Assembly: GCF_007990635.1 (NCBI RefSeq)
Contig: NZ_AP019846.1
Coordinates: 1,798,001-1,862,000, forward strand
Length of the DNA: 64,000 nt
Direction of reading: 5' to 3'
DNA from: Leptotrichia hongkongensis
Lineage (GTDB): Bacteria; Fusobacteriota; Fusobacteriia; Fusobacteriales; Leptotrichiaceae
Below, piece after piece: positions 18,159-19,989 of this stretch. The stretch's first letter is position 1; each line of letters starts with the position of its first letter. A model generated the notes under the pieces. That model had not been told where the DNA came from. It made no database searches and saw only the letters and a program-made list of their open reading frames with translations. A program made the position numbers and the translations under genes.

Positions 18159-18292
18159 TTTATTAAAAAATATTTACTTGAATATTATATAACAAATTTA
18201 ATAAAATTTGAAGAGTTTATTTTTATATTATTTTTACTTTTTGTTACATTTAATTAAATTTACAGATTTATAAAATTTTAAAAATAATTTAG

Positions 18293-18321
18293 TTGATTTA
18301 AAACAACTTATGTGATATAAT
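18293..18321 (+). promoter_or_regulatory. Promoter of candidate antitoxin RNA
   Basis: TTGATT, 17-base spacer, TATAAT. It points right into a stretch with no ORF that ends 60 bases later at a strong hairpin. Confidence 0.6.
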
Positions 18322-18337
18322 TATTTCGTAAAACTAA

Positions 18338-18354
18338 CTAACATTTGGAGATAA
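18338..18354 (+). repeat. Direct repeat A of the type I locus
   Basis: CTAACATTTGGAGATAA. It matches repeat B at 15 of 17 positions. Confidence 0.7.
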
Positions 18355-18356
18355 AA

Positions 18357-18384
18357 AAAGAGAGTGTTGCACCACTCTCTTTTT
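18357..18384. terminator. Shared bidirectional terminator of the type I locus
   Basis: A perfect 10-bp stem AAAGAGAGTG/CACTCTCTTT with a 6-base loop. T-runs follow on both strands (TTTTCTTTT on plus, seven T on minus). Confidence 0.85.
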
Positions 18385-18387
18385 CTT

Positions 18388-18468
18388 TTACAGGAATTTT
18401 TCAATTAAGTATCTCAATAGTTCCAGTAAAATTAGTAAAAGAATTTTGATAGTTTCTTTTACTCTCAT
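18388..18468 (-). CDS. Candidate type I toxin: 26-residue hydrophobic peptide
   Basis: The ORF encodes MRVKETIKILLLILLELLRY followed by LIEKFL. It has a short basic start, a leucine/isoleucine helix and a charged C-terminal end, so it could span or lie on the membrane. AGGAG is 10 bases upstream of the ATG. A second ATG at 18478 opens a hydrophilic 25-codon frame but touches the ribosome site directly, so it is less likely. The transcript would run from an extended -10 at 18502-18510 to the shared terminator. The bases next to the ribosome site are complementary to the convergent RNA. No similarity to a named toxin could be confirmed by eye. Confidence 0.5.
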   Translation of the reverse strand: MRVKETIKILLLILLELLRYLIEKFL

Positions 18469-18481
18469 CTTTATTCATCTC

Positions 18482-18498
18482 CTAACATTCGGAGTTAA
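18482..18498 (+). repeat. Direct repeat B of the type I locus
   Basis: CTAACATTCGGAGTTAA, in the predicted toxin 5' leader just upstream of its AGGAG. On the minus strand CTCC can also fold onto GGAG and mask the ribosome site. Confidence 0.7.
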
Positions 18499-18501
18499 TA
18501 T

Positions 18502-18510
18502 ATTATAACA
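18502..18510 (-). promoter_or_regulatory. Extended -10 promoter of the candidate toxin
   Basis: The minus strand reads TGTTATAAT, an extended -10. The -35 region is only A/T-rich. Confidence 0.5.
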
Positions 18511-18575
18511 TAAATTTTAGTTGATTAAAATTATTCAGATAAATATTAAAAATAAAACTATAAAAAATTGATATT

Positions 18576-19175
18576 TTATTTATTAATATAATTAAAATAA
18601 ATAAATCCGTCATCCATAACAGTCATTTTTGTAATACTTCCGTTATCTATCTTAAATTTCCAGTATCCATCCAAATTGCAGAATAGATAATAGCTAATTA
18701 AGGATTGGATAACTCCCGCATGAGCTATAATAAGTATTCTTTTGTTTTGATAATCTTTCTTTATTTTCTCAATTTTTTTCACAATTCGTTTTTGCAAATC
18801 AGAAAGGCTTTCTCCACCTTCTGCCTTAAAATTTCTCCAGTTATTTTTCATTTCATTGATATAATGTGGGAACTCTTTTTCTATCTCTTTGTAAGTTTTC
18901 CCTTCAAGTATCCCAAAATTCAGTTCTCTCAAATTTTCAGAAAAATTCTTTTTTATATTTTTGTCAATTTCCAAAAGTTCTAAACTTTCTCTACATCGAT
19001 TTAAGTCACTTGAAAATATTATATCTATTTTTTCACTCAGTTCTTTAAGTTTTTTTTTCGTATTTTTTAACTGATTTATTCCTGTTGTATTCAAGCTTGG
19101 ATTTAGATGTCCGTAATACAAATGTTTCTTATTATAGTCAGTTTCACCGTGTCTTATAAATAATATTTCTGTCAT
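18576..19175 (-). CDS. cobC: Histidine phosphatase, probable alpha-ribazole phosphatase CobC
   Basis: 199 residues of the phosphoglycerate-mutase-like superfamily. The RHGETDYN motif at 8-15 holds the phosphorylated His9, with the second catalytic histidine in LIIAHAGVIQS near 152 and Glu in the LRELNFGILEGKTY segment. CobC removes phosphate from alpha-ribazole-5-phosphate (or adenosylcobalamin phosphate) in the last steps of B12 assembly. The specific assignment rests on its place 47 bases after cobS on the same strand; other superfamily members look alike. Confidence 0.8.
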   Translation of the reverse strand: MTEILFIRHGETDYNKKHLYYGHLNPSLNTTGINQLKNTKKKLKELSEKIDIIFSSDLNRCRESLELLEIDKNIKKNFSENLRELNFGILEGKTYKEIEKEFPHYINEMKNNWRNFKAEGGESLSDLQKRIVKKIEKIKKDYQNKRILIIAHAGVIQSLISYYLFCNLDGYWKFKIDNGSITKMTVMDDGFIYFNYINK

Positions 19176-19222: not shown

Positions 19223-19989
19223 TTATCGTAAAACAATCCCTAAAAATAGTACTAATATTGATGTTAATTCAAGAGAAGCTCCCATTGTATCGCCAGTTAT
19301 CCCGCCAATCTTTTTTCGTACATTAAGCATAAACAGAATTATAAACAGAAGTGCGATAAATAAAGCAATGCCACCTTTTGTTCCAATTATAAGAAATACT
19401 AGAGCATTTGTCAAAATAAGTGAAAAAATCACTTCAAAAATACCATTTTCAGAAATTATGGCATTACTCATTCCAGATTTTCTAGCATAGTCAGAAAGAC
19501 CAGCATTTACTGATGTTGAAAGTCTTGCAATGATTGGAAAAATTATTAGATATTTCGGGTTTATTGTGATAATTTCAGAAATTATAGTAATTTTTGTAAT
19601 GAAATATAAAATTAATACAACTGTTCCATTTGTACCAATTCTTGAATCTTTCATAATTTCCAGCATTTTTTCTTTCTTAGCATAGCTAAAAAGCCCATCA
19701 AAAGTATCAGCAAGTCCATCAATGTGGATTATTCCAACAGCTAAAATTTCTATAATTATAATAAGTACAGCAATTATCACTTTATTATAAAAAATATTTT
19801 TAGATAGACTGTAATTAAAAAATTTGAAAAATATAAAATTAAGCCAATGATTAAGCCAACCAATGGAAAAAATTTAATTGACTTTCCTAATTTTTTCTCA
19901 CTATACTCTACTTTTATTGGTATTGGAATACGTGTCATAAATTGGATTAAGATAATGAATTGTTCAAAAAAATTTTTTATGTATTTCAT
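19223..19989 (-). pseudogene. cobS: Adenosylcobinamide-GDP ribazoletransferase CobS, one frameshift
   Basis: Two abutting frames make one CobS of about 255 residues. The first 70 residues (MKYIKNFFEQFIILIQFMTR, PIPIKVEYS, FFPLVGLIIGLI) are the usual N-terminus. The remainder from 19780 has HIDGLADTFDGLFS, the metal/substrate motif, MKDSRIGTNGTVVL and GITGDTMGASLE. Adding a T to the T6 run (19789-19794) joins them smoothly. CobS is a multi-pass membrane enzyme that joins adenosylcobinamide-GDP to alpha-ribazole. It is divergent from the precorrin-2 dehydrogenase gene and followed by cobC. The break may be a sequencing error. Confidence 0.88.

Follow-up and report, generated by a model that had tools for sequence, protein, structure and literature searches.

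The gap between argS and cobC in the chromosome of Leptotrichia hongkongensis very probably harbors a type I toxin-antitoxin module operating in the manner of par on plasmid pAD1, in which two opposed RNAs would be transcribed and the peptide encoded by one of them would be toxic. The locus lies within a 64-kb stretch of NZ_AP019846.1 (64,000 nucleotides; the window hereafter), and coordinates are positions within this window unless a genome:contig prefix is stated, G000 being the window's own genome. Convergent promoter-like sites, a shared terminator, complementarity that is specific to each locus, and a ribosome site that can be masked in the predicted fold are all present in the sequence (Table 1). 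Comparison with related genomes gives good support to a new, previously unnamed toxin family under a par-type antisense circuit. The wider reading, toward which we lean with some reserve, is that Fusobacteriota have a family of plasmid-addiction modules of the par type, to which these loci belong. Its toxins would form a family of their own, unrelated to Fst, its RNA plan would have arisen independently, and paired changes in two short repeats would have given rise to 14 or more separable antisense specificities.

Table 1. Features of the candidate module and its site in the window.
Feature	Position	Strand	Basis or remark
Toxin-like ORF, 26 aa, MRVKETIKILLLILLELLRYLIEKFL	18388..18468	-	Peptide type recurs in 9 loci
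Predicted toxin mRNA (RNA I), about 144 nt	18352..18497	-	Inferred from -10 position and terminator
Extended -10 TGTTATAAT for RNA I, without clear -35	18502..18510	-	Sequence
5' stem-loop CUCC-8 nt-GGAG, pairs the Shine-Dalgarno	18479..18494	-	Predicted fold
Shine-Dalgarno AGGAG, ATG 10 nt downstream	18479..18483	-	Sequence
Direct repeat (DR) CTAACATTCGGAGTTAA at RNA I 5' end, overlaps first Shine-Dalgarno bases	18482..18498	.	Sequence
Direct repeat CTAACATTTGGAGATAA within RNA II	18338..18354	.	Sequence
Bidirectional terminator common to both RNAs, 12-bp perfect stem, 6-nt loop	18355..18384	.	Sequence and folding
RNA II promoter TTGATT-17-TATAAT, TG precedes -10	18293..18321	+	Sequence
Predicted antisense antitoxin RNA (RNA II), about 58 nt	18328..18385	+	Inferred from promoter and terminator
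Segment of about 352 bp without counterpart in the cobC-argS gap of G001 (empty site)	18225..18576	.	Alignment gap, size and ends hand-counted

Both promoters in the window are of the extended -10 type, and they converge. A scan for the full architecture (an extended -10, a short ORF with a ribosome site, an A-tract/stem/T-tract, and a convergent -10) returned a single match in the 64 kb, which is this locus, and none in 60 first-order Markov resamplings; the match between the two direct repeats (DRs) was equaled by 0 of 1000 shuffles. Between 18093 and 18600, a generic promoter scan gave 7 matches where 4.8 ± 2.0 were expected, and a generic terminator rule listed none, which we attribute to its stem/T-run rule, as the stem is plain when the sequence is folded. 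A first-pass annotation of this DNA had described the hydrophobic 26-codon frame with its AGGAG, the extended -10 on the minus strand, the opposing promoter and the two DRs, and each was recovered as described, the DRs letter for letter and the plus-strand promoter with an additional TG extension. The perfect bidirectional terminator that it placed at 18357-18384 is also present, but is two bases wider, and its estimates of ~58 nt (plus) and ~140 nt (minus) for the two RNAs agree with the sizes predicted here. Some distance away, cobS (19223-19989, minus strand) reads as two overlapping frames (185 and 70 aa) versus a single 255-aa frame in G011 and G006, reflecting either a frameshift or a sequencing error.

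Strong DNA matches to the module occur in five other Leptotrichia genomes and at three loci of G019, a member of another genus within the same family, when 60 genomes (the window's own included) are searched. Some DNA match at E up to 0.001 is found in 28 of the 60, and those outside module loci are all short. A peptide profile for this window-type family (family 1), applied to 33 genomes of the taxonomic family and then to 98 of the phylum, recovers nine loci at E ≤ 4.2e-9, with the next matches at 0.0056 or weaker; they belong to G000, G006, G008, G009, G010, G011 (the closest ortholog of the window locus) and, as copies a, b, and c, to G019. The ORF, the terminator stem GAGAGTG and a convergent -10 are common to all nine. 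The extended TATAAT on the toxin side is kept in eight (it is missing in G006), and the RNA II -10 is TATAAT in seven and TATGAT in G006 and G009. The combined pattern of terminator stem and RNA II -10 occurs at only seven places in 98 genomes, all of them module loci, and at none when the pattern is reversed. Between non-orthologous copies, 172-292 bp can be aligned, and the flanks share only scattered short matches. Judged from these alignments, the module is conserved as one unit. The par-like layout proposed in the first-pass annotation, comprising ORF, promoters, terminator, and both repeats, is thus kept together in related genomes, and the joint conservation of ORF and repeats, whose absence it had named as telling against the proposal, has one exception, the visibly decayed copy in G006. 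Among the window peptide and the three from G019, codon position 2 differs least (24/144; position 1 has 57 differences and position 3 has 65), with one shifted frame giving a similar ratio.

Gene order around the module varies. It follows cobC in six Leptotrichia genomes, and argS adjoins it only in G000 and G011 (two of the six orthologous loci). A gene of ~800 codons lies between module and argS in G006, G008, and G010 (L119, L120, and L122; two open frames in G008), and argS of G009 is on a different contig. In G001, cobC and argS are 126 bp apart with no module between them, and the three G019 copies occupy three unrelated places, none near argS. Since argS is rarely adjacent, G001 has an empty site, and the G019 copies lie elsewhere, a role in the expression of argS or cobC is unlikely; the position between these two genes, as first annotated, holds for the window, but the neighbors are incidental. 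In G002 and G003, neither of which has a family-1 module, cobC is likewise followed by a long open frame, marking a variable site beside this gene. Two argS-like genes are present in G019 (G019:C1:1262767-1264512 and 2037353-2039080, with 57% and 71% identity), and the argS match of G007 (G007:C1:1630058-1631734) contains one in-frame stop.

A search of 98 genomes with the leader pattern identified a second locus in the window's own genome, G000:C1:1595911-1595988 (-), and found it in four relatives as well. This copy encodes a 26-aa peptide ending in EFWK; AATCCTTGA..AAAGGAGGT lies ahead of the frame, and behind it come a bidirectional terminator and a convergent -10. Near it (L186), on the opposite strand, is a 79-aa frame with IEGMHCENCAKKV that resembles a heavy-metal-binding protein by eye. 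A profile built for this second family (family 2) recovers 16 loci in the 98 genomes at the acceptance threshold of E ≤ 7e-4. A combined profile adds six matches beyond the known set: one is a further module (G026) and one a decayed module (G022:C1:1722086), a match in G025 proved spurious on inspection, and those in G050, G074, and G077, in frames 151-410 codons long, stand outside the count of loci given here. With G026, the decayed G022 copy and a core-deleted G006 copy, family 2 totals 19. An end-to-end alignment of family 1 with family 2 (hhalign probability 53, P 1.3e-4, 22 of 26 columns) is suggestive of a relationship between them; the peptides are 26-27 aa long (25 in G026). Altogether, 28 loci of two peptide types, with membership decided by inspection, occur in 13 of the 98 Fusobacteriota genomes, spanning four genera of one family; the carriers are 10 of the 13 Leptotrichia genomes plus G019, G022, and G026. 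The combined-profile search of the 98 genomes found no copy in the congeners G001, G005, and G007.

Small second contigs, 18-38 kb in length, carry five of the family-2 copies. A Pfam search of two such contigs places a Rep3 plasmid initiator near the module on both. On G006:C2 the initiator is ~1.6 kb away, and ParA-type, Mob_Pre, resolvase, and PemK genes are also present; on G022:C2 there are two Rep3 genes. The remaining three contigs were assessed by the resemblance of their ORFs. The module was first annotated as chromosomal, which is correct for the window, but it is not a lone oddity, given these relatives on second contigs. A PemK/MazF-like gene (L172:10536-11039, minus strand) is ~550 bp from the G006:C2 module, so two stability systems may stand side by side there. 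On the 23-kb contig G000:C2 (L187), for which no module is reported, ParA-like and Rep-like frames are apparent by eye together with a 3251-aa surface-protein-like ORF. Two tandem family-2 modules with different repeats (L176, G022:C1:44361-44704) lie near a frame that looks by eye like phosphoglycerate kinase.

Several groups of weaker matches were set aside. Thirteen weak family-1 peptide matches (E from 0.009 to 0.8) show no instance of promoter, terminator, and repeats together, and many of them lie opposite other genes. Four DNA matches were read (the L032-L034 regions and L010), one of which is G019c and three of which are not modules, and a weaker family-2 match (G011:C65, E > 7e-4) was rejected on inspection. 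A family-1 pattern scan of a wider collection of genome contigs matched 188 stretches, of which one was confirmed; the other carriers were not recovered by it.

Co-evolution of the DRs is the strongest evidence for the module in these sequences, in which both the complementarity and the paired change of the repeats are shown computationally. Duplex energies were calculated between the 5'-terminal 60-65 nt of each toxin mRNA and the pre-terminator antisense RNA, from predicted start sites, for 14 distinct types. Loci repeating an included type were left out of this matrix, as were the damaged family-1 copies of G006 and G009, the family-2 copies G002, G002p, and G010 (no RNA I -10), the core-deleted chromosomal copy of G006, and the decayed copy of G022; a duplex value of -13.5 for G002 was discarded as an artifact of the start-site rule. 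Cognate duplexes range from -17.0 to -27.0 kcal/mol, against a non-cognate mean of -8.7, and the strongest non-cognate duplex (-21.6 kcal/mol) joins RNAs from two family-2 types of Leptotrichia chromosomes. In all 14 rows and all 14 columns of the matrix, the cognate partner ranks first, and the diagonal sum is reached by 0 of 100,000 permutations, the 14 types being not fully independent because they are related by descent. No cognate energy is equaled by more than 2 of 500 shuffles, and for a five-type subset the cognate arrangement is the best of all 120 permutations.

The same pattern appears within orthologous pairs and within single genomes. Between the window and its ortholog in G008, 6 of the 17 DR positions have changed, three of them on both sides, with no pair broken; the family-2 orthologs of G000 and G009 both begin with residues MRT, for which they use different codons that in each case match the RNA II of the same locus. 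Paralogs of the same genome (a, b, and c in G019; a, b, and p in G022; the two in G000) are separated in energy, with G022 showing the narrowest margin, 5.2 kcal/mol. In 12 of the 14 types, the start codon falls within the paired mRNA segment (by inspection for G026). The two others are the window and G008, where the segment lies on the 5' leader and reaches into (window) or over (G008) the Shine-Dalgarno. The window DR covers the anti-Shine-Dalgarno arm and the first AGGAG bases, not the start codon; its block of translation would therefore be less direct than in most relatives, and the strength of a block by the DR alone is in some doubt. Here the fully complementary terminators may carry the first contact, by analogy with the description of par in part of one account (PMC7472228).

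When the first 24-26 nt are folded, a pyrimidine run upstream of the Shine-Dalgarno is predicted to pair with at least part of it in all 14 types. Taken singly, types give p values from 0.002 to 0.22 and several are weak; the Fisher combination of 1e-9 overstates the significance because the types are related. A 32-nt leader stretch of G019b prefers a different fold, and the whole G019b RNA I shows the hairpin. It is absent from the predicted folds of the damaged family-1 copies in G006 and G009.

Seven of the 28 copies are damaged, as counted by eye, every one of them at least on the toxin side. The family-1 copy of G006 has lost its toxin promoter, Shine-Dalgarno, and DR, with the ORF intact, and that of G009 has an altered ribosome site. 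Both also carry the weaker TATGAT as their RNA II -10, and since this element is weakened and the G006 ORF is intact, damage is not confined to the toxin side. Among family-2 copies, those on the chromosome and the second contig of G002 have frame changes, the chromosomal copy of G006 has the ORF core deleted, that of G010 has lost its 5' part, and the decayed G022 copy has an in-frame stop and no start region. These five retain a readable RNA II -10. Decay of this kind on the toxin side, seen in a small number of copies, is the pattern expected if a harmful peptide is held in check by an antisense RNA.

Taken together, these features suggest the following mechanism. RNA I, from the minus strand, would encode the hydrophobic peptide of 26 aa, which is probably membrane-active, and its 5' end is predicted to fold such that the Shine-Dalgarno is masked, an arrangement that could delay translation. 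The short RNA II would be transcribed from the opposite strand, where its promoter is recognizable by sequence, and the two RNAs could pair through the fully complementary terminator hairpin and through a second patch formed by the DRs. This pairing would block the ribosome and keep the peptide off. By analogy, loss of the locus, combined with a faster decay of RNA II than of RNA I, would release the toxin. The original role may have been plasmid maintenance, with the chromosomal copies as settled or decaying descendants; we infer such an origin because small second contigs account for 5 of the 28 copies and plasmid replication genes occur on at least two of these contigs.

The identity of the peptide bears on the ancestry of the module. 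The first-pass annotation had called the peptide unfamiliar, and this stands: none of 16 family peptides matches an Fst model in Pfam or NCBIfam. Matches to Prli42 (NCBIfam, E 0.02, 2 of 16 members) and ASFV_J13L (Pfam, E 7.2) were taken as chance. No match to the peptides was found among PDB profiles, PADLOC, or PHROGs, nor in plasmid and phage records; viral contigs contain no relative of either family, and one viral-contig pattern match (L131) is not the module. With E allowed up to 10, Rfam gives 13 matches, none of which attains the gathering score. Of four peptides compared with shuffles, two have a higher hydrophobic moment (at about 0.04-0.06) and two do not, which weakens the case for a strongly amphipathic helix.

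The par-like mechanism would also be compatible with an extremely diverged true member of the Fst/Ldr group that came from Firmicutes, and we regard this ancestry as improbable, though the likeliest of the alternatives weighed here. Fst/Ldr toxins, known from Firmicutes (Fst) and enterobacteria (Ldr), are described in the portion of PMC7472228 available to us by a PXXXG-type motif, a tryptophan, and a charged tail. The shared par anatomy fits such a descent, and a W near the C-terminus of 9 of 11 distinct family-2 peptides (G026 is without it) recalls the Fst tryptophan of that partial account; against it, the 16 peptides yield no Fst model match, both the (P/D/S/T)XXXG motif and the charged C-terminal tail are absent from the family peptides, and the window family has no W. 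PF13955 was found in none of four genomes, a result with a weak control in that 0 of 14 control genomes passed the cut-off. As the signature of the Fst toxin is absent, the peptide is not filed as Fst, despite its par-like working. A different proposal keeps the RNA circuit and assigns it a small membrane peptide that is not toxic, for instance a regulator of a membrane protein; such a function is unlikely in our estimation, somewhat more so than Fst ancestry. The conserved peptide core agrees with it, and the circuit is known from sequence alone, but repeated toxin-side damage with the RNA II -10 readable in five of seven cases, the copies on plasmid-like contigs, and the patchy presence of the module speak for a toxin.

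The repeats, rather than pairing as RNA, could serve as the operator of a protein that represses both promoters, with RNA complementarity incidental, as their closeness to both promoters in the window might suggest. This is very unlikely: the paired segment spans the start codon in most types, repeats differ among paralogs of one genome yet stay self-complementary, and the copies have unrelated flanks, so no regulator gene travels with the module. The window module does lie upstream of argS on the same strand, but that argS is so seldom its neighbor, is not near the three G019 copies, and adjoins cobC without the module in G001 leaves a leader peptide or attenuator of argS with a negligible probability, as does the failure of 60 resampled windows to produce a match for chance features of an AT-rich gap. 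The preferred reading thus remains that of a toxin under par-type antisense control.

RNA-controlled toxins appear to have been undescribed in Fusobacteriota. According to the consulted portion of a 2025 report on a cyanobacterial system (PMC12390103), type I systems had previously been known only from Proteobacteria, Firmicutes, and Tenericutes. The text available from PMC4147584 mentions type III, not type I, systems for Fusobacteria, and that from PMC10326533 labels a RelB protein as type I. In the sections seen of a transcriptome paper on Fusobacterium nucleatum (PMC11005410), no such system appears under toxin or antisense terms. The literature covered, outside of which lie subscription papers and preprints, yielded neither a type I toxin-antitoxin system in Leptotrichia or other Fusobacteriota nor an RNA-regulated toxin in Fusobacterium; absence from print is unproven. 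If our reading is correct, Fusobacteriota would join the phyla with type I systems, with a toxin family that is absent from the libraries searched and resides on chromosomes and plasmid-like contigs. The modules would also form a natural data set for the presumably open question of how an antisense pair changes specificity without a lethal intermediate, which the matched but different repeats of orthologs and the separated paralogs of single cells make directly testable. Small stabilizing modules may, in addition, aid plasmid genetics in Leptotrichia.

Among known systems, the closest in plan is par of Enterococcus faecalis pAD1 (Fst/RNA I/RNA II), with parEF0409 and Fst-Sm. The features given for par in the part of PMC7472228 consulted are convergent promoters, a bidirectional terminator, DRa/DRb, a 5' stem-loop, and often a U-turn. 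The convergent toxin and antitoxin promoters are found here in sequence, the shared bidirectional intrinsic terminator in sequence and folding, complementarity of the DRa/DRb type at the translation start (in the window reaching the first Shine-Dalgarno bases only), and a 5' stem-loop sequestering the Shine-Dalgarno in the predicted fold. A locus-encoded antisense RNA complementary to the toxin mRNA, the general mark of type I systems, is likewise indicated by sequence and duplex energies. The likeness to par and its chromosomal relatives, as they are partially described there, extends to a short hydrophobic peptide, to DRs of opposed reading near or over the translation start that are locus-specific and poorly conserved, and to the occurrence of both plasmid and chromosomal copies. 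The Leptotrichia modules differ in a peptide that is unrelated by profile, without PXXXG or a charged tail and 26-27 aa long (25 in G026) versus 33 in Fst; in a host from Fusobacteriota versus Firmicutes; and, in the window, in a DR off the start codon and a terminator loop without a U-turn. The YUNR U-turn is present in 7 of 16 loops (hand-delimited) of RNA I terminators, and the same partial source reports it missing from some Fst homologs (PMC7472228).

Some features are shared with other type I systems. Systems of the txpA/ratA type also have convergent transcripts with overlapping 3' ends, as predicted for Leptotrichia, where, in contrast, the overlap comprises only the terminator, outside of the ORF, and a second complementary patch is present; this type is named beside par in the available part of PMC4147584. 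The msoT1/msoA1 system of Microcystis, called the first outside Proteobacteria, Firmicutes, and Tenericutes in the consulted part of its report (PMC12390103), belongs to a different phylum, and the Leptotrichia module resembles it as a type I system beyond the classical phyla.
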